Position numbers and translations under genes: made by a program
Part shown: in pieces, positions 4,306-64,000 of the stretch
Numbering within the stretch: the first letter of the stretch is position 1
Layout of the letters: every line of letters begins with the position of its first letter
Notes under the pieces: model-generated
The model's database searches: none
What the model saw: the letters and a program-made list of their open reading frames with translations, nothing else
What the model was told of the DNA's origin: nothing
Source: Tachypleus tridentatus
Taxonomy: Eukaryota > Arthropoda > Merostomata > Xiphosura > Limulidae
Assembly (NCBI RefSeq): GCF_004210375.1
Contig: NC_134830.1
Location: forward strand, 65,574,326-65,638,325
Length of the DNA: 64,000 nucleotides
Direction: 5' to 3'

Positions 4306-5124
4306 ATGATGACGTCATTTTCCGTGTCAGCAACATATGAAACTGTATCGAAATATTCTAAAATCGGCTATTCTTCTCCGGGACCAGTAAAGGAAGTGAC
4401 AATTCCTTCAGCAACTTATGAGAACAATCGTAACCTATTGGTTATGGAATCCAAAACTTCTGAAAGAAATGTTAAAACAACTAACATATTGAAACTTTCC
4501 TCTTATACTAATTGTGAAAATTCAGAAAGTTTGTATGATCCAGATGAAAACTATTTGCCTGATCAATCACAATAATCTCCTTTAATAAGCCATGATCTTG
4601 GAAAAAAAAAAAAGCGCTGGATTACGAAACTTCAGGCTCTAATTTTATCCCAGATATGTTTCGCTTTCACCTGTCAAGCCAGTTCTGACGCTCGTGTTTT
4701 CTCCTTCTTTCCTAAAGAGGTACTTGTGTTTGTTTGTTTTTTTCATTTCTACTTAAATTGATAAAGGTAAAGTAAACAATTCAGACAACTAAATAAAAAA
4801 CAAAAATGTCGCACATGATTAAAAACAAACTAGGATATAAACTAGAAATAAGGTGAAATGTAACAGAGAAAGTGAAGAATGTGGAGAAATATATTCTACA
4901 CAGCAGTAATGGCAAGCTATAAATTATATTTAACCTCTAACAGTAAACCTCAAGTGCGCGATAAAAGTATAACTAAAAATAAATAGCAATTACAATAGTT
5001 CATGTGAATATGAGTATTCAAAAACACTTGCATGATAAATTTCGTATTTCAGCGTTATAAGTCCGTGAACTTGCTGCTCTCATACCATAAAACAATATTG
5101 TTTGTTAGATTGTTGTTGTTGTTG

Positions 5125-5300: not shown

Positions 5301-6394
5301 GACAAAAGGAAGGAACAATAATTAAACAATACAAAGAAAATAGATGACCACAACTTGGGTGTTTAAAATGATACGATAAAATGATGCAATAACTGTCACG
5401 AACTTGTATAAAAATAATATTGAAACGTAAAACGTCCTTATCATCAATTAATACTGTAAGATGAATTGCCTAAAATAGCCGTTATTAACTATTAATTATA
5501 AACTAAAAGTATGACAGAAATTCAACATTGTATGCTGTCACATCTTGTCTACGATTTTTGTTTTTGATTTTTTGTTTGAATGAACATTTAAACATAATCC
5601 CAAATGAGTCGATGTTGCTGTATACCATTCTCGTCATTTTAACAACTTAACAATAGAGTTGTGTAAATACGTACACGGTTGTTTTATATTTTAAACATAT
5701 TCCTTCTTTGTAATTTTCATTGTTGAAATCTGAAACATCTCATTTTTGTGGAAATTTCAATTGTTTCATTTATTGCTTTGCTATAAAACTACTTCCTAGT
5801 TATTAAATTAATAATTTTTGTGTTTGTTTCTGAGATCTGGGTTTTGATAATAACAAAATTCGTTTCATTTTCAGGCAGAGAGAAAAAAATGACGTCAACA
5901 CAGTACGGACATCTTTACGGAGCGCCTTCTTTGATTAAAATATTACTTTCTGCAATTATTTTCAAAACGTAAAGTACTATTTAAGTAATAGAAGGTGAAT
6001 TAAATGTTTAAAATTATTTTCATTTGTTATTCCAAAGCTCATGGAATTCGATGGTAAACTACGTTTCATAGCTACAACAAATACCATTTGCAGGCTTTCA
6101 GTAATAGTAGATCTGATAAGGGTAATTTTTCAGTAACAGTGTATGGAATGATATCAAACATTTCTTAAGAGAAAAATTATCAAAGTAAAAGTTCAATTAT
6201 TTTACTTCTATAAAACTTATTAAAACTTAACAACACGATTTCACGGATGTAATCAACAAATCACATGATAGCCAAAGCCGCTATGATGTGTTTCGTAATA
6301 TAATTTATTTCGGTTAACTGTCCGATTAATTATATAAAGTTTGTTAGTATGTTATTATTTTAAATAACCGAAACTCTGAATATCAATTTAGAAT

Positions 6395-7080: not shown

Positions 7081-10000
7081 TATTTTCTAATGCTCTCTTC
7101 TTCTTGAACATTCTCATGAGAAAACAACAAATTATTTCTATGCAGAAAAACCGTCTTCCCACCGCGATTCAACGAGAAATATTTCTTTATATCCTTATAT
7201 TATCATTTAACAGCCGATTATTATTTTGCACCGATCCTCTACATTCTTTAGATTTATTTCCCTCTTTTATTGATAATTTGTTTATAAAGTGTAAAAATGA
7301 AACTATATGATATTTCTTTCTTCTTATTTTGAATTATTTTACGTGTTTTTGAGGCACGTAATTAATATGATAGGTGTAATTTATCTATCGTTTTTGTTTC
7401 TTTTCGCTTTCGAAACAATACGTTCATTTCTTTATTCCCATAAAACCATTGTAATTTTTTTCTTTTCTTTTCTAACGTGATTTAACTCTAATGTCGGACA
7501 TTCAGCTAAAATGGCTTCATAATTTTGAAGTAAATCTCCAGTATTTTTTACCTGGTGGTTTATATTTTTAAGTAACTATGGTAAAATACATCACAGGTGA
7601 ACGTTACGTCATGGACTACAAAGATACTGTGGAACTTAAAATTTGATTTTATACAGTTTAACACATTCATTTAGTAAATTAAATAATTCCTATTAATTGG
7701 TTATAGAATTGAGGATTTCTAACTGTGTGGATATTAGGCTACATGTTTTCATGAAGTAAACAAATAATATTAAGTTGTTAGTGGTGAATTTCAAACAGTA
7801 CCAATGAAATAGAGAATGTTCCTGACAGGATGATTACTTTCTGATGAATGGATTTATCAGCCAGCTGTCTTTTGTGCAGAAATGTATATAAACTGGTAGT
7901 TTTCAAACTTTTTCAATATACTATTCTATGATAAGAGTTTACCATTTTGAGTTTCTTATATTATTCTCTAACAACACTTTTTGATTTATATTGCGAAAAT
8001 TTTAAAAATTGCATGCTAATGTCACTTACCCAGCTGCACTCTAACGCTGAAAAGATGCACAGCTGTTATTCTAAATTATTAGATCTAGTCAGTTAGGTGC
8101 CTTTGAGCCATTGTCTTTTTTATATCACTACTTTATTATTTTCATTATTCGATTCGTTGAATGGTTTATTGACGCTTCATCTATGAACAGTCGTTTTTCA
8201 CAGAAAATTTTCTGTCACATAATTGATGTATAAATGGTTACAAATGGTTAATCACCATCTATGTAAATGTTTCTTTTTAGCTAAAAGTATTTTTTTTAAT
8301 TTGTAGGTATGAAAGATCTCACCAAAATTTTTATTAATATCGGGATTATGTTTAAGCGGTTGTGCTACGATTTTTCTAGAGTAAGTTTATTTTTCACTTT
8401 TTCTTTTATCAAAATAACAGGGAAGATAAATATAAAAGAAGAACAACTTTTATTAACCACACATATTTTTTCAGTCGTTGAATTTCGCGATGAAAATATA
8501 AATAAGCAGTCCATGTACCATCTATGATCATTATAAAACTCAGTGGATGGAATGTATCACAATTGTACTTTGACTTCATTCAGCCTTTAGTACGTAGGGT
8601 GATGACACCAAACATTTGTTGTTTGCATAAAGAGAATAAAAGTATATGTAACATATCTTTAAACTGAGCTGATAAATACGAATTTGGTTCTTCGGCTATG
8701 TTAGTTTACAATAAGACTACTATTACGTGAACATATGGTTAGAGTCTATGTGACAATTACACCTAGCTATTGTAAGAAGTTTTACCAATTACAGGATCGT
8801 AGCTCAAATGTTAGAAATGGCTGTTTTTGTTAATTGCTTTCAGTTTACTCTTTCAATTAAAAATTAATGAAAAATAAAAGCCCACCACGTAGTTTTACAC
8901 GAATATTCTGCAAAATAACAAGGAATCACCTACATCATTCATATAGTGATGCAACTCCTACTTTTTCAAAATTTACCTTTTATAGTTAAAACAGCAGAGT
9001 ATTATACCAACGTAATCAAATGTTTCTTTTTTAATTTTCAGCTTTACAACTAAGTTACATAAAGTAATATGTCTAACTTGATGTTTTTGTTTCTATCATA
9101 ACACCTCAATCCACTCTAATGCAAAAGTTTTAGTAACTAATTAAAAATACTTTTTAGGGTATGAATTTTTGTATCTGGCCACTGTGGAAAATAATCATTA
9201 ATATTTTATGGGAAACATTCAAAGTTATCAGATTAAATAGCTTTAAAATAAGAAACAAACAAGCATAATAAAACATAATTTTCGAGAACATTTTTCATCT
9301 CAGATACATTACTCTGCAAATTTCAACCATTTGGAAAAAGTTAGTAATTGAGCAATAAAAATGTTATTTTTCGATCAAATGTTTAAGTAAGAATATAGTG
9401 GAAGAAAAATTGTTTTAAACCATATAAAATTTCATAAAAAAATGAAAAATAAGTATACAATAATAACTTAACAATATATGAGCATTATGCAGATACCAAT
9501 TCGTCTGACACTGCTGCTGCTATGTACAGGTTTTGTTATTACTCATGCGAGGAACGTTCGTGCGGGTTCGTGCTAGGCTTACATGCAAAATATACTTTTA
9601 TAATCCATAATTTACTCCTATATTTCAGCACTCTAATAAAGACTCCACCTGGACTTACATTTATTGGATTATCATTTATGGGAAGGATTGTTCAGGCTAT
9701 TGGATCAGTACCTCTGTTTACTCTGGGCTATGTCTTCATTGCCAACGAATTTACTGAATATCGTTCAACAGCTCTGGTGATAATAATTTCTTTTTAGAAT
9801 CTCAAATCTACAATATTACTGTAAATACCATATAATCTATGATTAACTGATAGTTTAAAAAATATAGCCTCATTAGTGGTATGAAAATCTATTATTTGAG
9901 ATTTTATTTGATAAATTCTAATTAAATTGATTTTTGAGAAAACTAATAGAAAAATATCAAGATGATGTCGGTTAATAATAAGTGATAGCTTCGAAGTAAT

Positions 10001-10104
10001 ATTTCTGTTCACAAACTAAAGTATTTTAATTTTTAATTTTTAATACAATTTACACTTCATTTGGACTTCAGTAAAACTAATTTTTCTATTGATATTGGCA
10101 TGAA

Positions 10105-10210
10105 ACCCATGCGAACAGCGGTATGTCTGTGTACTTATAACGCTACACTTCGTAATTCGAAATCCGTTTTTAGAAAGCACACAAACAATATATTGTAGCT
10201 TTGTGCAAAG
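10105..10210 (+). repeat. Old SINE, family 3, intron 4 of copy A
   Basis: Degraded tRNA-like head and body (GCGGTATGTCTGTGTACTTA, AATTCGAAATCCGTTTTTAG, TTGTAGCTTTGTGC). Counterpart at 58,890-58,990, so it was present before the duplication. Confidence 0.5.
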
Positions 10211-11380
10211 CGTACAAAAAACATATTTCATATACGCAACACTTTAAAACTTGGATATCAAAAACAATTTCCCATTCTTATATACCCAACAAATCCTCAA
10301 TCCGAAACAGAGAAAACGTGTAAAATAAATATTTTTAAAAATTAATAAAATTGAAAACTATAGCCTGAATTTATTTTGCACAAGTGAAAATTGCCAACCA
10401 TTTGTAATAACACATAGTCTACTGTAGTAACGATGAATCAGCTATACAGCCACTGTTCAAATGAGTTTTAGTGTAATACATGTATAAGAGACCCGAAGTT
10501 GTTTTGATACAAAATATTTTGCTAATCTCTTTCGCCACAAAAAACACCCACTTACAAATGTGAAACCATAGAAAACAATTTCGTAATTGTCACTGAAACA
10601 ATTATAACATTTGTTTTCTCTTTTATCTCGCCTTGATTAAGTGATAAATGAGAGGGAAGGAATCTTATCAAAATCGCGCTGATGAATCTAAAAAATTTTG
10701 TTTGCCATCAAAAATTGGGAAATAGATGAAAATAAGAGCATTTTCGGATTAAAAAAAATTTGATCTCGCGACACGTAGACCATGTATCATATGTTTCTAC
10801 TAACATTGGAAGCTGCTGCATTAGTGTGTTTCTTCTACTGGGGATAATATTTTTTTTATTTTTGTTTGTTTTAAAACAGCGATAGAATTTAATGACTTGA
10901 GTTTTCCTTGATTTACACAAAGATGTTACTTAGTCAAAAGAAGTCTAAACTTTGTTTGTATGCAACCAAGGTGATGTGACCAAATTACCGCTTGATTACC
11001 TTTTTGTGATACATAAGTGTACGCGAGTTTCTTGAAAAGTAAGTCGCCAGACATCTGCCTGTAAATTGTTCTGATGACGTTTTGGAATATTGTTTCGTTT
11101 ACTTTTAGTGATCAGCGCTCTGTTTTTGTGGTTGGGTACGTTTTGAACGTCGGTGATATCTTGATATATTTCGAAATAGATTATAAGAATGCTATTTTTC
11201 CATCAGTTCAACGTGGAGTTTAATATGATTATTGGTCTGCAATGGAGGCGTTTTGTGAACGAGGTTTCAATTTTGTTATGCCTGTGACGACAGTAGTTTT
11301 GCAGTACGTGGTAAAGTATTCAGTTTAAAGTGCAAAATTACATAACTCTGTAAAATATGATATATATTTGTCTTGCTTGG

Positions 11381-11517
11381 TATGTTTTGAATTTCGCGTA
11401 AAGTTAAACAAGGGTTATCTGTGTTAGCATTCTCTAATTTAGGAGTGTAACACAAGAGGGGTGGCAGCTCGTCATCATCACCTACCGAGAACTTTTGGAC
11501 TACTCTTTTGCTTGGTT
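11381..11517 (-). repeat. SINE, family 1, partial, abutting a second SINE
   Basis: Tail-side half of a family 1 body: GAATTTCGCGTAAAGTTAAA, then GGGGTGGCAGCTCGTCATCA. It runs straight into another SINE at 11,518, apparently one inserted into the other. Confidence 0.75.
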
Positions 11518-11792
11518 TGTTTTGTTTTTGAATTTCGCACAAAGCTACTCGAGAACTATCCGTGCTAGCCGTCCCTAATATAGCAGTGTAAGATTACAGG
11601 GAAGTCAGCTAGTCATTATTACCCATTCGCAACTCTTGGGATACTACTTTACCAACGAATAGTGGGATTGATCAATACTTTATAACATCTCCACGCCTGA
11701 AAATTCGAGCATGTTTGGTGTGACGGGAATTCGCTCCCGTGAACCTCCGACTACGAGTATAATGCCTTAACCACATGGTCATGCCGGTTCAT
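11518..11792 (-). repeat. SINE, family 1, near full length
   Basis: Body and tRNA-like head ending CATGGTCATGCCGGTTCA. The same insertion is present in unit C in inverted orientation (59,753-59,950), so it predates the inversion. Confidence 0.85.
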
Positions 11793-14700
11793 ATTTCTCT
11801 GGAAAGTTTGATTTTATTTATTTCGTTATCAAGTCTTTAAGCGATGCTTAAAGACACTCATTGATATGAATATTATGTCCGTGTATTGGCAAACGTATCT
11901 TACAATATATGTCAAGGCAAGTCATGGTCGCAAATATGATCCGAAGATTACGAGTAAAAGAAGTTAAGTTACCCTGCATTTGTGACTCTTTTAAACTGTA
12001 AATTTGGATTTTTTTACTTGTAAGACAATTTTCGCACATGAGGTCTTTCTTCAAGTTTTGAAATGTGATTTTACGTTTAAACACAGATTATTTTCCTTTC
12101 TATCTAAATTATTACTGGTCAAGAATTGAAATGAAGCCTAGGTCATTCCATTAATTGAACTTTACACCATCATAAATGTATTTTTCAACCGATATTTGTA
12201 TTTAACAAGTTTCAAACAATGACAGAAAATTATTCTCTGTGTTACTTAATAAAGTTATTAAAAGTATAAATTATAAAACGGCAAAACATAGTAGAGAAAA
12301 GTGTCCAAAGATTCAAACACATTCAAATCAAACTTTTTTAGTCATTACAAATGTGATACATATGAGTTCATGCTTCGAGAATGTCTACTGTTGACACCTG
12401 AAATGCAGAAGAAATCGAATGCACATTTATTAAATAACATGTTCTTGAATAGCAGCAGAATGGTTAACAAAGTGATTTATAACATAAATGATAAAATGAT
12501 AAAACTTACAAAAATATTGTATTAATAAGTACAAATAAACTTGTTAATTTATTTACAATAATAGTTATTCTGGTTTTCAGGTTAAAGGTTTTATGCTACT
12601 ATTTTTCTTCATTGGAGGGATTCTCTTGTGTTTATCTGCAATCATGTTCTTCTTGTTACCAGACACAGGTGATATGATATAAATTTTATTATAATTAACT
12701 CAACCTGTGTTAAAATTCTATGCTATGATATTTTAATTTATGGTTGTTAGACTAATTTAATACATAAATCGGTTTTCAAAATAACTGTAATCGTATTTAT
12801 TGGTTGCTTAGAACCACTTTCGTTTGATTAAAAATATTTTAAAATTTTCAGTCATTAATATGTTATTTCTTAATATTTTGTTTGTAATATAGTCAGTTAC
12901 ACTTGATTATTCTCCTTTTTTGCCTCTTATGTTTAATCAAAATATGCTACCCAAGAAAACAAGGGTGAAGTTTTGAAGATTATTCTTAACCGATCTTTTA
13001 TTGTGGAAATGATAAATACCTTAACAGGCTTCATTATCGTGGGCTTAAATGAGGCGACCTTGGAGCCTCACATCAGACAGGTACATTAAATTCAGTTGTT
13101 TTTTGTGTTCCATGAATTCCTTTGAAAACATCAAGCAGTCAAGTCGTATTAGAAAATTGGTTTACATTATCATCAGTTAGATTTTATTTTTTCTATCGCA
13201 ATTTTAAATTTTCCAATGACGTAGCAAGTAAATTAATGATTATTTGAACTAATCGCTTCGTTAGTCAAAATAGCTATACACTAACTACTCGTTTGTTTGT
13301 TTTTCTTGCGAAAAGTTACACATTAAGCTACTTGCGATAGTCTACCGAAGATATTCGAGCCTGGAATTTCTTTACTATTTTGAATTTAAGTATAAAAGTA
13401 AAAACAAAATGGTCCAGTCTATTTAATTTCAACTCTCGAACTATTTGGAATTTGTAAACTTGTTTTCAACATTTATTAATAAAAAAGGAGATCTAACTAT
13501 TCACAAAATATATTTTGATGGCAAATGTTTTAAGGGATTTAGATCGATATATATACATACATTTCTATATTAATGTCCACCATTGTACTATCAAAATAAA
13601 ATATAAACATTTAATATATTTATACTCGGATAAATATGGAAAATAAATTGAACAATCAAATCCAGTTACAATTCTATGACTCAAGAAATCAAATTGTATA
13701 TTATTGAATATGAGTTTTATCATTTTCTGAAGCATTGTGTGATTACTTCGTGCAGTTTGGTCTGGCACCAACGGTTGTTGGACTTATATTTATTGTGTCT
13801 GGTGGAATGTATTCGATTGGATCTCTTGTCAGGGGAAAAATTTATCACAAAACTGTGAGTATACAGATTCAATTGATTAATATTTGTCTTTTATAAAGAT
13901 GGATTATTATACTTAAATTAAAAAGTAACCACGATGTTTAAATAAAAAGCCAACAACATTTCAATTACGATAAATATTCATATTCATTGCTTATAAAACA
14001 AATTTACAAACAGACATCCAATCAAAATAAAAGTACAATTTGCAATAAACCTGAATTAAATAGGCATGCTCTGAGCTCATTTTATTGTTTTTCAGCTACA
14101 TTCTTGCTTTCCAATCTATATAAACAACAATATTTGCATAACGAGTTTATTATTAATTTGACCCGCACCTTTCCTTCCTCCAAAAATGTAAGTTTTATCT
14201 CATATTATACACTATGTGTTTTTATATCTCGGATTGTTTTCTTGTATTTCCAAACTTATTTTTTCTCTAGGTAGACAAGGAAACAATTTAGAGTTTAGAT
14301 ATTCTACTACAAGAAAATTTCGTTCTCTTCGGTTTTTCATACTTTTCGCATCATAAAACAAAAGTTATTATCTGCTATTGTTCTTGTTAGTTCATCATAA
14401 CTAACTGCAAGCTAACGATCATAATGGAGCCACATCTAATACGATAAATTATGTAATTAGAAACAGTTTAGTACGTTAAGATCAACTTATAGTGGTAGGC
14501 GTATTTACTTTAACTAACTATATTTATCTACGTATTACTATTACATACACAGTAGCAACTCATTGCTATTCCAGGTTAATACTCTCGCATCAGGCTAAGA
14601 ATATTAAGGAATTAAATGACAATAATTTAGTTATGGTTAAGTTAAAATGTGACACTCCAACGTACATTTACCTATATTTAATATTATTAGTCTACTTTGA

Positions 14701-15090: not shown

Positions 15091-15925
15091 ATCATACAAA
15101 TAAGTACATCGACATAATTTTAAACTGAAATCATTTATGTATTAAGGTGTTTTCTGTTATATGACCAATGTTATTTATAAAATTAAAAATACTTAATAAA
15201 TATGGGCTATAAATTAAGAAATCAGCAGTTTTTTATTCAATTAAATCTATTGCTATAAAAGCTGTAAAGGATAATAAAATATACTTTATCGGTAAGTGAA
15301 CTCAAAAAGAAAACATTTTTGAGATTTGTTTTTAGGGCGTTTGATTTTATACTCCAAGAATGTGAATCACATAGATAATAATATCCTGGTCAGTCTCTCA
15401 GGGTTAACATACCATGTGTGCAAAATTTCTTTGTTAGTATGTTCTTTACTTTTGAACCTATTGCAGTAACATACATCTAATCACTTTCTCTTATTATTAT
15501 CGACAACACATATAGCATAAAGATATTTTGGTGGCAGTAAAATAGCTGAGTAGAATGATTTTGAACACTTAGTATTGTTTGTTTATTCGTCTTTGAAGAG
15601 ATGACAACAATCGTTTAAGACTTGACACTGAGAATTACTATGATAAGGAAAAAAATATAGCAACAACATGAATTCCTTCTCTGTTTGGAAGAGAAGTCCT
15701 CCTTGTGTATTTCAACATTGTCAAAACTCCAGAAACCATTTTTTTCATCCATTACATGTTAGCTTAAGTGTAAGTGTCCATAATTTGCATCGATATTGCT
15801 GAAGGAAATATAGGTATATATGAAGTCTCAAGCAAAGAATCTGCTCTTGAAACAATCAAAACATGCGTAGCAAATTTTATGGCCATAACAAATTTGATAA
15901 TTCGAAAAAAATAAGTTCCGTTTAG

Positions 15926-16193
15926 TTTCTTTTGAATTTTGCGCAAAGCTACTCAAGGGCTATCTGCGCTGGCCGTCGCTATTTTAGCAGTGTAACACTA
16001 GGAGAAAGTAGCTATTCATCACCACACACCACCAACTCTTGGACTACCCTTTTACCACGAATAGTGATATTCACCGTCACATAATAGCGCCCCCAAGGCT
16101 GAAAGCGCGAGCATGTTTGGTGTGACGGAAATTCGAACCCGCTACCCTCGAATTACGAGGCGAGTGCATGAACCCCCTGGCCATCTGGGCCAA
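15926..16193 (-). repeat. SINE, family 1, near full length, intron 9 of copy A
   Basis: TTTTGCGCAAAGCTACTCAA at the tail side, then the body and a tRNA-like head with B-box complement GAAATTCGAACCCGC. Confidence 0.88.
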
Positions 16194-18964: not shown

Positions 18965-19104
18965 TAGTGATAAAATGAAATATGAAAAATATGAAAAAAA
19001 ATTCATCTACTACTGGAAATGTCTTTGTTAGATTGTGCTATGATAAAATAAAGCTAAATAATACCATCAAGAATCCGTCAGATTGCGAATTATTGTTTTG
19101 TATT

Positions 19105-19302
19105 TCTTTTTTTTTTTTGAATTTCGCACAAAGTTACTCGAGAGTTATCTCTGCTAGCCGTCCCTAATTTAGTGGTGTAAGACTAGAGGGAAGGCAGCTA
19201 GACATCACCACCCGTCGTTAACTCTTAAGTTACTCTTTTACCAACGAATAGTGGTATTAACCGTCACATTATAGCGCCCCCACGGCTGAAAGGGCGAGCA
19301 TG
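19105..19302 (-). repeat. SINE, family 1, head-truncated
   Basis: T-run, GAATTTCGCACAAAGTTACT, a complete body, ending at GGGCGAGCATGA. The tRNA-like head is missing. Confidence 0.88.
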
Positions 19303-29442: not shown

Positions 29443-29702
29443 CACTATGTTAACTGTTTTGGAATTTCGCACAAAGCTACTCGAGGGCTATCTGTGCTAG
29501 CCGTCCCTAATTTAGCAGTGTAAGACTAGAGGGAAGGCAGCTAGTCATCACCACCCACCGCCAACTCTTGGGCTACTCTTTTACCAACGAATAGTGGGAT
29601 TGACCGTCACATTATACACCCCCACGGCTGGGAGGGCGAGCATGTTTAGCGCGACGCGGGCGCGAACCCGCGACCCTCGGATTACGAGTACACTATGTTA
29701 AC
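29443..29702 (-). repeat. SINE, family 1, with 12 bp target site duplication
   Basis: Low-divergence element (29,455-29,690) bounded by perfect 12 bp repeats CACTATGTTAAC at 29,443-29,454 and 29,691-29,702. The 5' end of the tRNA-like head is missing. It stands just left of unit B and is probably a recent insertion. Confidence 0.92.
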
Positions 29703-30430: not shown

Positions 30431-31274
30431 TGGGAAGGAACACATAACTCAAATATTTCCCTATTCGTTACACATTCACTGCTAAGTTGGGAAGCTGAGG
30501 TTGCAAGTATGTATTGATACAAATCTTTAGTTATTTTGTTTTGAATGTTCAATTCTTATTCTTTACACGTAGTGAAAATGTGTGATTTTTTTCGCTATTC
30601 TTTGAATTCTCTGTGTCTACTCTAGCGATGAATATAGCGTATGTCTATGTTTCTTACTACAGCTCAAGTGAAATCCTCACTCAGTTAATCATGCGGTAAT
30701 TCATAGCAAAACATTACTTTACTAAAAACATTAATTGCTTGTATCACAAACCATTATTTTAAATAAAATTACATTTAAACTGAAGCAATTATTTCTTATA
30801 AACGTTAACAAATGGATCACATATTGAGATTAATTTTGAAGTTAGGTTATCATTTTGACTGGAATGAATATTTGCTCTTTTTCGTTTTTCCAAAGACTTC
30901 TACTCTGTATTACTGTGAAATGGTGACGTCATTACCCATATCAGCAACAAATGAAACTGTATCGGAAGTTTTTAAAAGTTCTTCTCTCTTTCTACGAAAC
31001 AGAAAAAGCAAAAATTATACCTTCAGCAACTTGTGAGAACATGCTTAATCTATTGGAATACAACACTTCAGAAAGAAATGTTCAAACAACTTACATATTG
31101 TAACTTTCCTCTTATACTAATTATAAAAATTCAGATAGTTTATATCATCCGGATAAAAACTATTTGCCTGATCAATCACAATCATCTCCTTCAATAAGTT
31201 TTGCTCTTGGAAACAAAAACAGGCGAAGGATTACGAAACGTCAGGATGTAAATTTATACCAAAATAGTTTTGCT

Positions 31275-31563
31275 TTCACCTGTTAGGCCCGGCATGGCCA
31301 AGCGTGTTAAGGCGTGCGACTCGTAATCTGAGGGTCGCGGGTTCGCGCCAAACATGCTCGCCCTTTCAACCGTGGGGGCGTTATAATGTAACGGTCAATC
31401 CCACTATTCGTTGGTAAAAGAGTAACCGAAGAGTTGGCGATGGGTGGTTATGACTAGCTGCCTTCCCTCTAATCTAGTCTCGGGACGGCTAGCACAGATA
31501 GCCCTCGAGTAGCTTTGTGCGAAATTCCAAAACAAACAAACAAACAAACAAATTCACCTGTTA
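31275..31563 (+). repeat. Full-length SINE, family 1, inserted in coding exon 1 of copy B
   Basis: Complete element 31,286-31,552: tRNA-like head with A box (TGGCCAAGCGTGTTAAGG) and B box (GGGTTCGCGCC), about 200 bp body, (CAAA)n tail. An 11 bp perfect target duplication TTCACCTGTTA flanks it (31,275-31,285 and 31,553-31,563). The split exon is restored by comparison with copies A and C, which are uninterrupted here. Confidence 0.95.
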
Positions 31564-31849
31564 AGCCAGTTGTTACGCTTTTGTTTTCTCCTTCTTCTCT
31601 GAAGAGGTACTTGTTTTTTCATTTCTCTAATTAAAGTGATAAAAGTATAGTAAACGTTTAAAACAACTAAGCTATAAAAGAAAATGTCTCACATGATTAA
31701 AACAAACTAGGATACAAACTAGAAATAAGGTGAAATATAAGAGAAAAGGGAAGATAAAAACAAATTAAAATAGTAAATTTAAATAAGTGTGTTAAAAGAA
31801 ACATGAAAACACACCATAAAACAAAATGGTTTGTTGGATTGTTGTTCCT

Positions 31850-32010
31850 TTTTTTTATTTCGCGCAAAGCTAAACGAGAGCTATCTGAGCTCGCCGTACC
31901 AAATTTAGCAAAGTAAGACTAGAGAGAAGGCAGTTGATCATCACCAACTCTTGAGCTACTCTTTTTCCCAACGATTGGTAGGATTTACTAATTACTTGAT
32001 CATGCCAGGC
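31850..32010 (-). repeat. Old SINE, family 1, in intron 1 of copy B
   Basis: Counterpart of the SINEs at 5,125 and 54,003. It shares the same degraded head side ending CAGGCCATTGAGAC. Confidence 0.75.
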
Positions 32011-33129
32011 CATTGAGACAAAATGGCGAAAATATAAATGAACGATACAAGGAAAAAGAGACGACCACAGCTAGAATGCTTAAAATAACACGATGTCATT
32101 AAAAACAATAACAGTCACGTACTTGTACAAAGATAATATCAAAATCTAAAACGTCCTTCTCACTAATTAATACTGTAAGATAAATTATGTTTATCATTAA
32201 AATTTCCGTATAACTTAATTCTATTTAACTTACATTTATGATGGGCATCTATTCCTTATTGTGTTCGGATATTCGCGCAATTCTACACAAAGGTTATCTG
32301 CAGTAGCAGTCATCTTGTCTATGATATTTGTTTTTGCCTTGTTGTCTGAATAAACATTTAAACATATTCCCAAATCAGAAGATGCTCCTGTTTTCCTTCT
32401 TTTAACAAATTAACAATATTGCTGTGTAAATACGGAAACGTTTGTTTTATATTTTAAACTTATTCCTTCTCGTTTTGAATATTTCTTGGTGAAAACTAAA
32501 ACAGATAAATTTCAATTGTTTTATTTATTGTTAAACTATAAAATTATTACCAAGATATAAAAACACCACCGAGCTTGGTAGTTTGTGAGATTTGAGTTTT
32601 TTTTTAAATAGCCAAAAAACATTTCCTTTCCAGGCAGAGAAAAAACAGATAACAACAACACAGTATGGATTTCTTTATGAAGTGCATTCTTTGGTTATAC
32701 TTTTACTTTCTCCGGTTATTTTCAAAATGGTGAGTATCAATTAAATAATAAAAAGTAAATTAATTGTTTAAGATTATTATTTTTTGTTAATATAGAGCAC
32801 AAAGAGCTCGATCGTAGGCTAATTTTTATAGTTACAACATGTACCATTTGGAAGCTGTCAGTAATAATATAATTTCTCAGTAACGTTATCCACAATGACA
32901 TCAAACATTTTTACAGGAAAGAAAAATATTATTGAAGTAAATATTTATTTCCTTTAGATCTACAAAGTTTAGTAGATCTTAACAAAACAATCTCAAAAAT
33001 GCAAATCAACAAATCACATAATAGCTAAAGCCATTATGATGTGTTTTGTATTATAATTTAATTCGGATGAGTGTCCGATTTATTGTGTTACGTTTGTGAG
33101 CACGTTTTATTTCAAATAATCAAAAAGGT

Positions 33130-33690
33130 GAATTTCAATTCAGAAGTTAGTTAACTGTTAATATGTATGAAATTTATGGTACTTGAAACAAAATATTATT
33201 TTTAACACAAATATATTTTAATATACAAACACAAAATAGACAATATAATTTATAATAACGGTGATTACTAACAGTTATTACAAAATGATTGCTTACACAC
33301 AAGAATTTTAAAAACTTACAGACAATAATAATTCTTATATCCAGTATGGAACTGAATATATTATTGATGATCCTGGTTCACGATGATCAAATTAATTCTG
33401 AGTTGATACTGTCACACTTCGCTAAAGCTAGCCAACGCGATTGGCCTAACGCCGCTTATAAGTTGACTTTTACCGACGAGATATTTAATTTCTCCTTAGA
33501 AGTAATAACGTGAGAAGTAATTCACGGAAGTTAAACAGTTTGTTAGTTCGAAATCTATCAACCTTCCTGGATTTCGGGTTTTCGTGAAGCAAATATTATT
33601 GATCTTACACTCAAGAATCTCCTATACATTTCGAGAACGTGCGAGACTTGCACAATACACACTCCCAAAAGAGTAAACTATAAGCAAACA
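33130..33690. repeat. Repeat R, intron 2 of copy B
   Basis: Positional counterpart of 6,395-7,080. Contains ATAATTTATAATAACGG and TCTTATATCCAGTATGGAAC. Confidence 0.55.
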
Positions 33691-34084
33691 AGCGCAAATA
33701 TTAAAATAAACGTATAATTCGTTTTTCTGAAGGTTTGTTCTAATTGAACTTTCTCATGAGAAAAATAACACATTATTTTTATGCAGGCAAACTATCTCCA
33801 CACCGCGATTAAAAGAGAAATATTTCTTTGTGTCAATCTTTTATTATTTAACAGTCGTTTATTGTGACAAAAACATTGCACCCACCCCATATATTCCCTT
33901 ATTTTGAATTATTTTTAGGTAACTTTTAAGTCACGAAATAATTTCCTAGGTATCATTTATATTGTATTTTTTATTTTTTTTACGTGACAATGCGTACATT
34001 TCTTTATTCACATAAAATCACTGTATTTTTGTTGTTTAGTTTATAACACGATTTTCATCTCATTTACTTCTGTAAGTCTACAAA

Positions 34085-34190
34085 ATTACAACGCAAAATC
34101 AGTGGTTCGAATCCCATATGTGGACTCAGCAGATAGCACGCTGTGGATTTTCTATAAGCAAACACATACAAACACACAGACACATGAATT
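34085..34190 (+). repeat. SINE, family 2, in intron 2 of copy B
   Basis: GTGGTTCGAATCCCATATGT (B-box-like), ACTCAGCAGATAGCACGCTG and a CACACA tail. Not seen at this place in units A or C, so private to B. Confidence 0.72.
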
Positions 34191-35149
34191 TAATCACTAA
34201 TGTACTTCATTCACCTGAAATGACTTCATAATTTTGAAATAAATATCTAGTATTTTCACTTTGGTTGTGTTTATTTTTATAAGTAACTATAGTCAAGGGG
34301 CCTGGTTGTCAAATGCAGCACTAGTGAACGTTTTATCATAGAGTACAAAGGCACGGTGGAACCTAAATTTGTTTCAATAGAGCTCAACGCATTCAATCTT
34401 CTGTAGTAAATTAAATAATTCATATTAATTGGTTCTAGACTAACGAATTCAAACTTTCTGGTTATGAGCTAAAAATATTTTCATGAAGTAAACAAATAAT
34501 AATATGTTGTTCCTCCGAAATTTCGAAGAGTACCAATAAAATAGAAAACGTTCAGAACCGGACGATCATTTTCTCATAAATAGATCTTAGCTCAGCTATT
34601 TATTGTGGAAAAATGTGTATAAACTGGTGGTTCTCAAACTTTTCCAGTAGATTTTCCGATGATAAAAGTTTACCCTCATTAATTATTTCTGATATTTTTT
34701 AACAACACCTTTTGTTTCGCATTACGAAACATTTTAAACTTACATGTCGATTGCTCTTACCCAGGTGCACTCTGGCGCTGAGCAAATGCATAGCTTTTAT
34801 TCTAAACTATATATTCTAGAGAATTCGATACCTTTGAGAGATTTTTTGATATCACGAATTTATTGCTTTCATTATTTGATTGGGTGAATGACTTATTGAC
34901 GTCACATTTTCTATCAAATGTTTTATAACCATGTATTTAAATGTTTCTTTTAACAAAAAGAAACATTTATTCATTTGCAGGTTCCAAATATATCAACAAA
35001 ATGTTTTTAAACCTCGGGGGCGGGTGTTTAGGCGGTGGCGCTACGATATTTCTTAGGTAAGTTTATCTTTCACTTTTTCTTTTATCAGAATAACAATGAA
35101 GATAAATATAAAAAGAGGAACGACGTTTATTAACAAAACATATTATTTC

Positions 35150-47267: not shown

Positions 47268-47516
47268 CGACTGGTAATCCGAGGGTGGCGGGTTCGAATC
47301 CCGGTCGCACCAAACATGCTCGCCCTCCCAGCCGTGGGGTTGTTATAATGTGACGGTCAGTCCCACTATTCCTTGGTAAAAGAGTAGCCCAAGAGTTGGC
47401 TGTGGGTGGTGATGACTAGCTGCCTTCCATCTTGTCTTACACTGCCAAATTAGGGACAGCTGGTGCAGATAGCCCTCAAGTAACTTTGCGAGAAATTTAA
47501 AACAAACAAACAAACA
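47268..47516 (+). repeat. SINE, family 1, head nearly complete
   Basis: B box GGGTTCGAATCCCGGTCGCA, body, (CAAA)n tail. Low divergence. Confidence 0.9.
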
Positions 47517-49354
47517 AATCACCCAACCTCTGCATTTGGACACATATAAATAATTCTTCAGTAAAAGGTGCATATATTCTGTAACCTAAATATGTAAATG
47601 AGAACCCCAGTATTTTAAATAAATAAATAAAAGTAAAATATCAACAATACTCAAACGGTTATAATTAAAACGAGATTATATTTTATACAAAACACATAAA
47701 AAACTCAATAATATTCGGATATACTGATTCACATTAGTTTTTATTAACAAACACACCAAACAACATGCCTTTCTGTACCTCAAATGAAGGTGAAAAGGTT
47801 TTGTTACAAAATGTTATACTTAGAGTAGAAGTACGAATCTGTAACAATAAACAAAGTGCCTTTCAAATTTAAATGTATTATTGGTGTCTTAGCGCCGCAT
47901 ATCTTGTTACAAGATTTAAATATCTGTTACAGACTTTCTTAACAATATTTACGTGTCTCTTAACAAGAAATGTACGTTTATAAAAATAATTTTCAAAATA
48001 ATTTATCTGTATCTCAGCAAAAAGTCTAGTTCTTAAATTGTTAATATTATATATGTTTATTGAAATATTCTATACAGAATCGGGTTCCCTTTTAAAAAGA
48101 AATGTATGTTTGTAATAAAAAAGGATTCTGAACAATATCTAAATACCTCTTAAAAACATTTTCAACATGATCAACGTGTTTCTTAACAATATCTACATAC
48201 CTGTTAAAAAGATCCGTATCTCAGTCTAAAACAAAATCAACAAATTCACCTTTAAAATTGCATTATAGAGAAAAATTACTACTTGAAGAAGAAATACATG
48301 TCTGTTACAAAACAAAACAAAACTGTCAACACTTGATTCAAAGAGAATCAAGAAATCAAAGTTAAAGAAAAACTAAACAAACTTATTATAAACCAACTTC
48401 CAACTTTCTCTACGATTTCAAGATTTTCAAAAAAACTTGGAAGTCATAATTGCCGCCAAGTCTTTATTTTATATTAGCTGTTCATATTCTTCTGTTCAGT
48501 AACATTTTTTAGGGTTCTCAATTACACTGTTTACAGAACATATCATGACAAAAAAATAATTTGATAAAATCATGAAAGACCAGATATAATAAAACCAAAG
48601 CTTTTCGTGTTCTTATTATGAGTCTTAATACTGTCAAGCTGTAAAACTTTATATAACCAAAACATTTACGTTTTAAATATACAGTGTGATTATAAAATTT
48701 ATCTGACTAAGGTTTTGTTTATTTAATATTTAATTTATGTTCTCAATGAATTTCCATTTATCGAATTTTTATTGGTATATAAGAAAATAGTTTAACAGGA
48801 GGCACTTCATGATATTGAAATTAGTTTTTCTACAACATCAGTTTATTGAATTTTCAGCCTCAGTTTTTAAGTGAAGACGAATCTTGTTTTCTTTTGTAAC
48901 TATTTATGAAAATCGTATTAGAAACACTCTTTCATTGATTCAGGAATGGAAAGCTGCATGTTTCGGTTTATTTTGATAAATTTGTATTAATTTCGATAAA
49001 TAATCCTAGAAATCCATCTACAGCTCAGAGAATGACGAAACAAAAGGCGCTGATCAAAACTTTGTTACTTAGAAGAGATAACCAAGATTTTACAAAGAAA
49101 ATTAAACGAGTAATCCGTTGTAATATACAATAAATAATGAACAAACCTGGCTTATTTGGTTCTTAACTTTCAAGATATGTTAAGTTCTTAGCACTTCACA
49201 CATTTAAAATAAACTCGCCTAATGCCACACTCCTTGAAAACTTGTCTATAATACCTCTTGACATGACATAGGAAAGGTATTTCATAAACTAGAAATATTT
49301 TATTATACATTACATTTAGAGAACAACATATTGATCAATATTTTAATTGGAAAA

Positions 49355-53201: not shown

Positions 53202-53609
53202 ATGATGACGTCATTTTCCGTGTCAGCAGCATATGAAACTGTATCGGAATATTCTGAAATCGGCTATTCATCTTCGGGACCAGAAAAGAAAGAAACTATT
53301 CCTTCAGCAACTTATGAGAACAAGCTTAACCCATTGGAATCGAATACTTCCGAAAGAAATGTTCAAAAAACTGACATACTGAAACTTAACTCTTATACTA
53401 ATTATGAAAATTCGGAAAGTTTGTATGATCAAGATGAAAACTATTTGTCTGATCAATCACAATCATCTCCTTTAATAAGCCACGATCTTGGAAACGAACG
53501 CAAGCGCTGGATTACGAAACGTCAGGCTCTAGTTTTCTCCCAAATCAGTTTCGCTTTCATCTGTCAAGCCAGTTGTGACGCTTTTGTTTTCTCTTTCTTC
53601 CCTAAAGAG
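53202..53609 (+). CDS. Copy C coding exon 1
   Basis: 136 codons, phase 0 at the end, donor GTACTT. It encodes the cytosolic N-terminus and TM1, ending FSFFPKE. The hydrophilic lead (about 95 residues) is longer than I recall for vertebrate SLC18B1. Confidence 0.82.
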
Positions 53610-56600
53610 GTACTTGTGTTTTTCTTCATTTCTAATTAAACTGATAGAGATAAAGTAAACAATTCAGACAACTAAATCAAAAACAAAAATGTCAAACATG
53701 ATGAAAACACAAAATAGGATAAAACTAGAAATAAGGTTATGTGTAACAGAAAAAGGGAAAAATGTGCAGAAATATATTATACACAGCAGTAATGACAAGC
53801 TACAAATTATATTTAACCTCTATTAGTAATTCTCAAGAATGCAATAAAAATGTAACTTAAGATAAATAGCAATTAGAATAGCTCGTGCAAATAATATTAT
53901 TCAAAAACACGATTTATTGCTTGACAAACCTGATATTTAAGCGTTATAAGTCCGTAAACTTTCACACCATAAAACAAAATGGTTTGTTAGATTGTTGTCG
54001 TTGTTGATTATTTTCGCGCAAATCTACACGAGATATATTAAAGCTAGCCGTCCCTAAATCAATAATATAAGACAAGATGGAAGGCAGATAATCATCACCA
54101 CCCACAACGAACTTTTGGACGTCTTTTTTCCCAATTAATAATGGGATTGACTCATCATTTGGTCATAGCAGGCCATTGAGACAAAAGGGAGGAAAGATAA
54201 CTGAACAATATAAGGAAAAGGGATGACACAGGTCGGGTGTTAAAATAATACGATGTCTTTAAATACAATAACTGTCACGTACTTGTATAAAGATAATATT
54301 GAAACGTAAAACGTTCTTGTCATCAATTAATACTGTAAGACAAATTATCTAAAATAGTCGTCATTAACTTCAATATAATAAATTAGAAGCATGACAGAAA
54401 ATCAGCATTGTATGCTGCTACATTTTGTCTACGATTTTTGGTTTTGCTTTTTTGTCTGAATACAAATTTAAACATAATCACAAATGAGACGATGCTGCTG
54501 AATACTATTCTCGTCCGTTTAACAACTTAACAATATTGTTGTGTAAATACGTATACGATTGTTTTTCATTTCAAACATATTCCTTCTTCTTTGTAACTTT
54601 TCTTAGTGAAATCTGAACATTTCATTTTTATGGAAATTTCAAATGTTTCCTTTATTGCCCTGCTGTAAAACTACCACTTAGTTATTAAATTAATGATTGG
54701 TGAGGTTGTTTCTGAGACCTGAGATTTGATAATATGCAAAAACGTTTCATTTTCAGGCAGAAAGAAAAAATGTAACGTCAACACAGTACGGACTTTTTTA
54801 CGGAGTGTCTTCTTTGATTAAATTTTTACTTTCTCCATTTATTTCCAAAATGGTAAGTACCATTTAAAGAATAGAAGGTAAATTAATTGTTTAAATTATT
54901 ATTTTTGTTACTGTAGAGCTCATCGAGTTAGATGGTAAACTAAGTTTTATAGCTGCAATAGATACCAATTGCAGACTGTCAGTAAAAGTAGACTAGATAA
55001 GGATAATTTTTCAATAACAGTGTATAGAAAGATATAAAACATTTTTTTACAAAAAGAGAAAAATATTAAAGTAAAAACTCAATTATTTTACTTCTGTAAA
55101 ATTTAGTGGATCTTAATAAAACAATTTCAAACATGTGATTTGTTTCATAATATAATTTATTTCGGATAAGTGTCCGATTGATTATGTTAAGTTTGTTAGA
55201 ATGTTATTACTTTAAATAACCGAAAATTTGAATATTCAATTTAGAAGTTAATTAACTGTTAATATCAATGAACTTTATGGTACTTGTAACAAGACAGTCT
55301 TTTTTAAAGAGAAATATATTTTATTATAGAAACACAAAATAGACAATATAATTTACAATAACGGTTAATATTAATAGTTATTACAAACTATTGTTTTCAA
55401 AGAATAATTTTACAAACTGACAGTCAATATCGATTCTTATATCCAGTATAGAACTGAATATTTTATCAATAATTAATCCTGGTTCACAATGTCCAAATTA
55501 ATTATGAGTTGATACTGTCGGATCTCGCAAAATTTAGCAGGCTCAGTTGTCTTTACGCCGCTCATCAGCTGATTTTTACTTGCGAGATATTTAATGTCCT
55601 CGTTGAAGTAACAACATTCTGATTAATTCACAGAAGTTGACCAGTTTACAAGCTCTATAACTGTGAATAACGGTCAATCCATAACTAGTTTTCTGATGGT
55701 CTCTTCTAGTTGAACATTCTCATGAAAAAAAAAAAAATTTATGCAGGAAAACCGTCTCCCAACTGCAATTCAACGAGAAAATTTTCTTTATATCCTTATA
55801 TTATTATTTAACAGTCGATTATTTAGACAAACATTTTGCACTTATCCTCTACGTTCTTTTGATTCATTTTCTTCTTTTAACTAAAATTTGTTTATCAAGT
55901 GTAAAAATGAAACTATATTACATTTCTTTCCCCTTATTTTGAATTACTTTTATGTACATTTTGAATCACATAATTAATTTGTTAGGTGTAATTTATCTTG
56001 TATCGTTTCTTTTTTTTCACTTTTGTAATAATACATTCATTTCTTTATTCCGATAAAGCCATAATAATTTTGTCGTTTAATTTATAACATGATTTAACAC
56101 TAATATAGTGTATTCACCTAAAATGATTTCATAATTTGAAGGAAATATCTAGTATTTTGCACCTAGTGTTGTTTATTTTTATAAGTAACTATGGTCAAAT
56201 ACATCATAGGTGAAGTTTCGTTATTGACATTATACAGTTCAACGAATTAATTCAGTAAATTAAATAATTTCTATCAATTGGTTACAGAATCACGGATTTC
56301 TAATTGTCTGGTTAATAAGCTGTATATTTTTATAAGGTAAACAAATAATGATAAGTTGTTAATAGTGAATTTCAAACAGAACCAGAAAAATAGGGAATGT
56401 TCCGTACCGGATGATTATTATCTCATCAATGGATTTTAACCCAACTATTTATTGGGCAGAACTGGCGGTTCTCAAATTTTTTCAAAAGATTATCAGATGA
56501 TAAAAGTTTACCTTCATGAGTTATTTGTGATATTTTCTTACAACACTCTTTGCTTCAAATTACTTAATGTTTTAAAATTGCACCCTAATAACACTTACCC

Positions 56601-59600
56601 AGATGCACTCTGACGCTGAGAAGATGCACAGCTGTTATTCTAAATTATCTGACATAGCCAATTTCGGTGCCGTGGAGTGATTGTTTTTTTATATCACTAC
56701 TTTATTACCTTCATTAATCGATTCGTCGAATGGTTTATTGACGCCGAATATAAGAACATTCGTTTATCACAGAGAATTTTCTATAACAAAATTGATGTAT
56801 AAATCGTTACAAATGGTTAAGCGCCATATATGTAAATGTTTCTTTTAACTAAAAGTATTTTTTTTAATTTGTAGGTATCAAAGATCTCACCAAAATATTT
56901 GTTAATCTCGGGGTTATGTTTAAGCGGTTGTGCTACGATTTTTCTTGGGTAAGTTAATTTTTCACTTTTTCTTTTATCAAAATAACAATGAAGATAAATA
57001 TAGAAAGAAGAACGACTTTTATTAACAAAACATAATTTTTCATTCCTTGAATTTCGCGAAAACTACTCCAGAATTATAGGTGACATAATAAAGAAAAACT
57101 ACCAGCCAATAATTCCCTCCGCCAGTTTTTTGTTTTCTTCCAATAATATTTGAATTGAAGATCACGTTACAGCGCCTCCTCTACCATCAGAAACGACGAT
57201 CATATTTTGTTACGTGGTTTCATCAGTTTTAGAAAATCCATATGGATACTTACCAACATGATAGTTATCTACCTTCTATTATATACGATTATGAAAATGA
57301 AAATGAACAGTTCACGTACCATCCATAATCATTATAAAACTCTGTGGATGGAATGTATCACAATTGGACTTTGAATTCATTAAGCGTCTAGTACTTAGGG
57401 TGATAACACAAACATCTGTTGTTTTCATAAAAAGAATAAAAATATATGCAACGTATCTTTAAACTGAGCTGATAAATACGAAATTGGTTCTACACACATG
57501 TTATTTTAAAAGGAGACTACTATTACATGAACATGTGGTTACAGTCCTCTTGACAATTACACTTAGCTATTGTGATCAGTTTTACCAACTACAGGATCGT
57601 AGCTCAAATGTTAGAAGTGGCTGTTTTAGTTAACTGCACTCTGTCTACTCTTTCAATTTAAAATTAATGACAGAGGTGACCCACCACGTAGTTTTACACG
57701 AAAATTCTACAAAACAACAAGAAATCGCCTACGTCATAGTTTAGTGCTGCAAATTCTGCTTCTCCAAAACTTACATTTCTTCTTTAAAACAGCGAAGTTT
57801 TATGCCAACGTAATTAAATGTTATTTTAATATTCAGCTTCCGAACTGCTGTACGTAAAGCAACATGTCTAACATGGTTTTTATTTTTATCATTTCGCCTC
57901 AATCCACTTGAATGCAAAAGGTTTCGTAATTAATTAGAAATGCTTTTTATGGTATGAATTTTTGTATCTGGCTACTGTGGTAAATAATCTTTAATATTTT
58001 ATGGGAAACATTCAAATGTATCAGATTAACTAGCTTTAAAATAAGAAAGAAACAAATATAATAAAGCATATAATTTTCGAGTACACATTCTCATGTTAGT
58101 TACTTTACTAAAATTTCAACCATTTGAAAAATGTTAGTAATTGAGCAATAAAAATGTTATTTTTCGTTCAAATGTCTAAGTAAGAAAATAGTGGAAGAAA
58201 AATTGTTTTAAACTATATAAAATTGTATAAAATAACGAAAAAAAATATAAAATAATAACTCAACAATATATGAGCGTCATGCTCTCACCAAACCGTCTAA
58301 CACTGCAACAAGCGAGATGTTTTGTCATTAGTTCTGCGAGGAAAGTTCGTACGGTTTCATGTTAGGGTTACATGCAAAATATATTTTATAATCCATAATT
58401 TACTACAACATTTCAGCACTCTAACAAAGACTCCACCTGGACTTACATTTCTTGGATTATCATTTATGGGAAGGATTGTTCAGGCTATTGGATCAGTATC
58501 TCTGTTTACTCTGGGCTATGTCTTCATTGCCAACGAATTTACTAAATATCGTTCAACAGCTCTGGTAAGAATAAGTTCTTTTTAGAATCTCAAATCAATT
58601 TTTCTAAATACCCTGTATTCTCTGAATAACTGCTAGTTTGAAAAATATAGCCTCAATAGTAGTATGAAAACTTATGATTTGAGATCTTATTTGTTTAAAT
58701 TCTAATTAAATTGATCTTTGAGAAAACTGATATAAAAATATCAAGACGATGTCGGTTAATAATAAGTGATAGCTTCGAAGTTACATTTCTGTTCACAAAC
58801 TAAAGTATTTTAATTTGTAATTTTTAATATATTTTACACTTCATTTGGAGTTTCGTAAAACTAATTTTTCTATTGATATTAACATGGAACCCACAAGTTT
58901 AGCGGTGTGTTTGTGTATTTATAACCCTACAATTCGTAATTCGATACCCGTTTTTAGAAAGCGTACGTAGACTCTTTTGTAGCTTTGTGCAAAACGTAGA
59001 AAAAACATGTTTCATATACACAACACTTTAAAACATTTATATCAAAAACAATTCACCCATTTTATATACCAAACAAATCCACAATACGAATGAGAGAATA
59101 CATGCAAAATAAATATTTTTTAAAAATTAATAAAATTGAAAACGATAGTGTGAATTTATTTCTTACTTTATTTTGCACAAATGAAAATTACCAACCAGTT
59201 GTAATAATGCATTTTATAATGTAGTAACGTTGAAACAGCTGTACGTTCACTATTCGAAAGTATTTTAGAATTATACATGTATAACACTCCTGAAGTTGTT
59301 TTCATAGAGAATATTTTGCTAATTTCTGCTGCTACAACAAAACAACCACTTTGAAATGTGAAACCATAGAAAACAATTCCGTGATCGTCACTGAGACAGT
59401 TATAACTTATTTGTTTTCTCATTGATGTTGCCTTCATTAAGTAACGGATGAGAGGGAAGGAATCTTATCAAAATTACGACGACGAATCTGAAGATATTGG
59501 ATGACATCAAAAATTGAGAAATAGCTGAAAATAAGAGAATTTTCGGTTTCAAAAATTGAACTCGCGACACGAAGGTTACGAGCCTAATGCCCTAACCATT

Positions 59601-63654: not shown

Positions 63655-64000
63655 GTAAGTTTTATCTCATGTTATTCATTATTTCGGTAATGTATTTTTA
63701 TATCTCGTATTGTTTACTTGTATTTTCAAACTTATTTTTTCTCTAAAAAGAACAAGAAATACATTTAGCGATTTAGATATCTCTCTAATTCTAAGTTACA
63801 CTAACTCATTTTCTGTCGTTAAGTCACGTTCTTTATTATTTATAATCTTCTTCTGGGTCCATGGGGGAAGGAGAACACTAATAATACACTTTTTGTAATC
63901 AACTCTTTTTCAATCTGAAAACATAAATACACTTTTTATAACTTCCTTTTCAAAATCTGATTATTCATAAACTAATACTAACATTTAAAATTTTAAATCA

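Follow-up and report, generated by a model that had tools for sequence, protein, structure and literature searches.

This locus raises the question of how one transporter gene unit, unit A, came to lack an internal exon at the border of an inverted segment, and whether this rearrangement is what disabled it. The window, by which we mean the whole stretch of 64,000 nucleotides that was analysed (C6:65,574,326-65,638,325, C6 being the contig), lies within an array of SLC18B1-like MFS transporter genes. From a comparison of unit A with unit C, the original prediction had proposed that one complex event both inverted part of copy A and removed its functional core.

Unit C was modelled as eight exons with AG/GT borders, read from a start codon in exon 1 in a continuous frame of 373 codons. 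Its predicted product matched the Pfam domain MFS_1 (93.5 bits, against a curated cut-off of 33.4; E = 1.6e-26), and residues 77-372 aligned with solved SLC18B1 (E = 6e-33, 117.5 bits), the runner-up being VMAT2 (E = 2.4e-12, 49.7 bits) in a comparison that covered solved structures only. Judged among solved structures, the predicted product of unit C is SLC18B1-like and nearer to SLC18B1 than to VMAT/VAChT. SLC18B1 is an MFS-type transporter associated with polyamine transport. The exon that had been placed at 61,384-61,452 of unit C is real, being the fifth of eight exons in one frame; it carries the sequence ASSEMLLGLGVTLGPAIGGALYE, with LGPAIGG aligned to LGPPVGG of SLC18B1, and we take LGPAIGG to be MFS motif C, presumably located in transmembrane helix 5. 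The unit C features are:

53,205 to 53,609, plus strand: unit C exon 1 (coding part), eight-exon model
54,757 to 54,852, plus strand: unit C exon 2, GT donor intact, 96 nt, phase 0-0, eight-exon model
56,875 to 56,948, plus strand: unit C exon 3, eight-exon model
58,417 to 58,564, plus strand: unit C exon 4, eight-exon model
61,384 to 61,452, plus strand: unit C exon 5, MFS motif C (LGPAIGG), 69 nt, phase 0-0, bordered by AG and GT
62,097 to 62,184, plus strand: unit C exon 6, eight-exon model
62,467 to 62,606, plus strand: unit C exon 7, eight-exon model
63,202 to 63,300, plus strand: unit C exon 8, the last in the eight-exon model

A protein search of the 2.17-Gb genome (205 contigs) with the unit C exons revealed matches spanning ~64.93 to 65.85 Mb of C6, with weaker matches on C7 and C12. 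In contrast to SLC18B1 itself, the genes form here a large tandem array with several broken units, a comparison made on the eight-exon model, which omits any later exons. Among the matches listed, the literature on SLC18B1 in spiders and on SLC18B1 tandem duplication or family expansion held no title describing an array of this kind. The array contains two further A-type units, A2 (within C6:65,226,601-65,237,858) and A3 (within 65,521,101-65,532,278), both on the strand opposite to that of the window unit, which we also call A1. The strand of the units switches at about 65.56-65.58 Mb of C6: most matches from ~65.22 to 65.56 Mb are on the minus strand (A2, G, K, F, and A3), those from 65.578 Mb rightward are on the plus strand (A1, B, C, D, E, and others), and both strands are mixed left of ~65.22 Mb.

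Alignment of the window with itself, in both orientations, revealed inverted matches between units A and C with collinear flanks on both sides. On the left, A 8,490-10,778 is collinear with C 57,291-59,574, and on the right A 11,932-14,302 is collinear with C 61,455-63,780. Between these flanks, A 10,781-11,087 matches C 60,854-60,544 (83%, 307 bits), A 11,080-11,407 matches C 60,357-60,042 (84%, 345 bits), and A 11,631-11,927 matches C 59,911-59,605 (76%, 222 bits), all inverted; since their E-values are 9.9e-58 or lower, these are not chance matches. The inversion of about 1.2 kb that had been predicted is therefore present, with its limits at 10,781-11,927 rather than at 10,770-12,016:

10,781 to 11,927, minus strand: inverted intronic segment of unit A, between exons 4 and 6, 1,147 bp by self-alignment; this orientation in 3 of 12 segment-bearing units
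59,605 to 60,854, plus strand: unit C counterpart of the inverted segment, in the ancestral orientation, by self-alignment; this orientation in 9 of 12 segment-bearing units

The segment of unit D matches that of A over its full length (89%, with flanks at about 91%), and in local coordinates of D the layout of A corresponds to D up to 1884, followed by D 3013-1917 in reverse and by D from 3595 on. A dispersed repeat of ~240 bp occurs many times in the window and also on many contigs, its positions in the window including 11,507-11,787, 29,455-29,690, 47,268-47,518, 19,103-19,302, and 15,922-16,191; the segment as query returned 10,557 candidates at first look, and 40 of these were scored.

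At both edges of the inversion, sequence of unit C is absent from A, and each junction of A contains a few bases that match neither parent:

59,575 to 59,604, plus strand: unit C sequence absent from A at the left inversion edge, 30 bp (32 bp in D)
60,855 to 61,454, plus strand: unit C sequence absent from A at the right inversion edge, containing exon 5, 600 bp (about 581 bp in D)
10,779 to 10,780, no strand: left junction, 2 bp matching neither parent, between the left flank (to 10,778) and the inverted segment; identical in A2 and A3
11,928 to 11,931, no strand: right junction, about 4 bp matching neither parent, between the inverted segment and the right flank (from 11,932); identical in A2 and A3

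The predicted loss of roughly 660 bp beside the inversion thus exists, at a size of 600 bp, and is accompanied by the 30-bp loss on the left, which the prediction did not mention; inversion and loss do share a border, with only 2 and 4 bp between them. The right-hand deletion stops 2 bp beyond exon 5, within its GT donor. Exon 5 was sought elsewhere in unit A by short-word BLAST of DNA and by two genome-wide DNA searches, all of which a strongly diverged remnant could escape, and no copy was found. Unit C exon 5 with its flanks was located at 14 places genome-wide and D exon 5 at 11 places, in neither case in A or its two sister copies. The exon table revealed exons 1-4 and 6-8 to be present and exon 5 absent in each of A1, A2, and A3, and exon 5 to be kept in D and K with intact borders and frame.

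Which of the two arrangements is the altered one was judged from the other units of the array. We aligned the A segment, as query, with 13 gene-oriented units and counted only matches that start before position 730 of the segment, leaving out the dispersed repeat; 12 units match outside the repeat part and B matches only within it, and same-orientation matches of E and F within the repeat, beginning at 722 and 729, were left uncounted. The C orientation was found in nine of nine non-A units with the segment (C, D, E, F, G, H, I, J, and K, the last retaining only 84 bp of it) and the A orientation in A1, A2, and A3. Trees were built from two regions, one starting 550 bp upstream of exon 6 and ending at exon 8 (12 units) and the other from exon 1 to exon 2 (11 units). 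In both trees A1-A3 form one clade (100/100) nested in a clade of D, K, and A (100/100); how D and K branch with respect to A is less well supported (92/92 and 62/50). Since the orientations across units and the trees agree in this, the inversion is derived and arose on the A stem before A was copied. The earlier view that A, not C, is the altered copy is borne out by the orientation in the other units, and by sequence comparison we regard A as the derived form and the rearrangement as having preceded its copying.

Near-identical array units are prone to mis-assembly, which could in principle produce an apparent inversion. A-type junctions were found, however, at C6:65.228, 65.523, and 65.586 Mb, and the three units that carry both junctions are not replicas of one another, identity to A1 over about 4.8 kb being 98.3% for A2 and 97.2% for A3, or 1.7% and 2.8% difference from the window copy. 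An assembly error as the source of the inversion is unlikely on this ground, and we give an artefact hardly any credence.

The junctions themselves were inspected for traces of the repair that formed them. Inverted matches between the two breakpoint regions reach at most 13 bp in D and 12 bp in C, the longest ones lying away from the junctions, and recombination between inverted repeats (NAHR) was ruled out as a cause. No microhomology was seen at either junction; a 6-bp word, GCGACA, occurs on both sides near the left junction, not at it, and was not counted as such. Because junction microhomology and an inverted repeat over 13 bp are both absent, end joining fits better than repeat recombination, and the junctions look like products of end joining without homology, a mechanism that we infer from their appearance and for which template switching would be a possible substitute. 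A tRNA-like SINE at the left breakpoint was considered separately and dropped after a tRNA scan (no tRNA in 59,400-61,600), Rfam (no match in the window at gathering thresholds), and a genome search, in which the left-breakpoint sequence of C was found at 5 places, all inside the array (counts of common repeats being lower bounds).

Relative to C/D, unit A has an inverted piece with a loss on each side (30/32 bp left and 600/581 bp right), which is the layout of delINVdel variants known in human genomes, such as the CEP78 case (PMC6286558). In its intragenic inverted piece with a deletion on each side, unit A resembles that case. In that paper, microhomology of at least 3 bp is reported for 8 of 8 novel junctions in four individuals; unlike these, the junctions of unit A show no microhomology and have 2 and 4 bp of unmatched sequence.

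A single complex event may lie behind the inversion and the loss, as originally proposed, and the common border on which that proposal drew is real; a single event is not demonstrated by it, since an inversion followed by an overlapping deletion leaves a like border. In one two-step route, the stretch between the left break and the inner right break would first be cleanly inverted, and a deletion of ~613 bp over the new right junction (32 + 581 bp) would come second; in another, a larger clean inversion would come first and the deletion would span the left junction, and the resulting sequence is identical. The common border is no evidence for one event because one repair with trimming and both two-step routes all yield it. 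That the two changes occurred one after the other, both neutral in an already dead copy, is a reading whose chances we put a little short of even. It needs no coincidence of breakpoints, and deletions are known in other units of the array, K lacking part of exon 3 and all of exon 4, and B lacking exons 4-8; against it, none of the 12 segment-bearing units is an intermediate, and one event is simpler to state.

As to when unit A stopped working, its remaining exons carry several lesions beyond the missing exon 5:

4,309 to 4,719, plus strand: unit A exon 1, in-frame stop not seen in A2 and A3, exon comparison
5,875 to 5,969, plus strand: unit A exon 2, 1 bp short, donor TA for GT (TT in D and K), exon comparison
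8,307 to 8,380, plus strand: unit A exon 3, nonsense second codon common to A1-A3 and absent in D, exon comparison
9,629 to 9,776, plus strand: unit A exon 4, exon comparison
12,581 to 12,668, plus strand: unit A exon 6, exon comparison
12,941 to 13,080, plus strand: unit A exon 7, acceptor AA for AG in A1-A3, not in D, exon comparison
13,756 to 13,854, plus strand: unit A exon 8, exon comparison

Exon 1 is open in A2, whereas it carries a private stop in A1 and a private frameshift in A3. At the exon 2 donor position, C, E, F, G, B, and J read GT, D and K read TT, A1-A3 read TA, and I reads AT. Because loss of this donor is common to A and the unrearranged units D and K, it is probably older than the rearrangement, and this pattern suggests that the donor was probably lost by one G-to-T change in the ancestor of D, K, and A, before the inversion. 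Repeated loss is possible, since unit I lost its exon 2 donor separately, and gene conversion between units could also have spread the change. In D, K, and A a GT lies one base upstream of the lost donor, and its use would shift the frame; skipping of exon 2 would keep the frame and remove 32 residues. We infer that function was lost with this donor, and A was probably not working when it was rearranged.

These observations bear directly on the original prediction, whose claim that the functional core was removed from a working copy is not supported, given the exon 2 donor defect of the unrearranged units D and K; A has the exon 3 stop and the lost exon 7 acceptor as well, lesions that may have come before or after the inversion. 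Taken in full, with one complex event inverting the segment, removing exon 5, and killing a working copy, the prediction is in our judgment improbable: the loss abutting the inversion at both edges and the known delINVdel layout speak for it, but the donor loss is common to units that were never rearranged, and a clean inversion with a single ~613-bp deletion over either junction gives the identical sequence.

Defects were also seen in other units. In a comparison of nine units (C, E, F, G, D, K, and A1-A3), in which exon 3 of F was partly covered and exons 3 and 4 of K were partial or absent, C alone has all eight exons open and bordered by AG/GT. The exon 7 donor of D is GA, and D thus has altered exon 2 and exon 7 donors. 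E and G each have a one-base difference in the A-run of exon 2, and F has a frameshift in exon 1, a changed acceptor at exon 4, and a stop in exon 7. Unit K (C6:65,454,354-65,463,220) has a separate deletion from mid-exon 3 through exon 4 into the segment and retains exon 5. Unit B (about 30,900-35,100 of the window) matches exons 1-3 only, exons 4-8 not being found in C6:65,602,000-65,612,000.

Substitutions were counted by parsimony in A1, A2, A3, D, C, E, and G, leaving out K (no exon 4), F (exon 3 partly covered), and B, H, I, and J (more distant or truncated). On the A stem, changes fell on 26 of the 1,048 exon sites and on 90 of the 3,132 intron sites (Fisher p = 0.59). Gapped columns and codons were dropped, so that 24 of the 26 exon changes were classed, 17 as nonsynonymous and 7 as synonymous (pN/pS 0.73), and changes in the same codon were scored singly. 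Quantification of the other branches over the same sites gave exon 25/1,048 versus intron 91/3,132 for the D tip (p = 0.45; pN/pS 0.65), 54/1,048 versus 205/3,132 for the branch between the C/E/G and A/D groups (p = 0.12; pN/pS 0.67), and 15/1,048 versus 62/3,132 for changes private to one A copy (p = 0.29; pN/pS 0.60). Exon 4 had 0 A-stem changes in its 148 sites. On none of these branches did exons change detectably more slowly than introns. The A-stem rates fit neutral decay, in a test that is weak and says little on A specifically because the control branches are equally flat.

Could in-frame skipping still allow A-type units to make a transporter variant without transmembrane helix 5? Either of exons 2 and 5, being phase 0-0, could be skipped with the frame kept, there is a cryptic in-frame AG 15 nt downstream of the exon 7 acceptor that A has lost, and exon 1 of A2 is open, so that a shortened product could be compatible with the splice and exon lesions alone. 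The exon 3 nonsense codon argues against it, being present together with the exon 7 acceptor loss in A1, A2, and A3, as do the exon 1 stop (A1) or frameshift (A3) in two of the three copies and the lack of a constraint signal, on the weak rate test. Moreover, with one helix fewer the topology of the remaining helices of a membrane protein is inverted. Such a variant seems to us very improbable, and no working product would be expected from A.

Unit A keeps its introns and has disabling lesions, as in an unprocessed pseudogene. We hold with considerable confidence that it is one, within an SLC18B1-like array, and that it lost a splice donor, then underwent inversion with exon loss, and was then copied. 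On this account, the common ancestor of A, D, and K would first have lost the exon 2 donor, the greater age of that loss following from descent. On the A-only branch, about 1.1 kb between exons 4 and 6 then flipped, with losses of about 30 bp at one edge and of about 580-600 bp at the other, the latter including the 69-nt motif-C exon 5. Either a single repair would have rejoined two breaks, with trimming, or one deletion over a junction would have come after a clean inversion; the two-step reading is compatible with this account. The scarred unit was finally copied, and it now stands at three places in the array. The comparison of units establishes polarity, exon loss, and the later copying of A. 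We consider far-fetched the idea that the dead A-type unit spread to three places because it yields a useful non-coding product, such as a transcript with an effect on unit C.

Unprocessed pseudogenes of tandem arrays keep their introns and collect stops, frameshifts, splice-site losses, and exon losses in the duplicate. Unit A is like them in its retained introns, stops, splice-site loss, and exon loss, with a frameshift in A3, and unlike the usual case in that the broken unit itself is found at three places. A border common to an inversion and a deletion proves by itself neither one event nor the cause of inactivation. What the locus would represent is the ordinary decay of a spare gene copy, with a known type of rearrangement (delINVdel) in a decaying tandem duplicate, and we claim no wider consequence. 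It is a well polarised case of decay in a transporter array, leading from splice-site loss through intragenic inversion with exon loss to copying of the broken unit.
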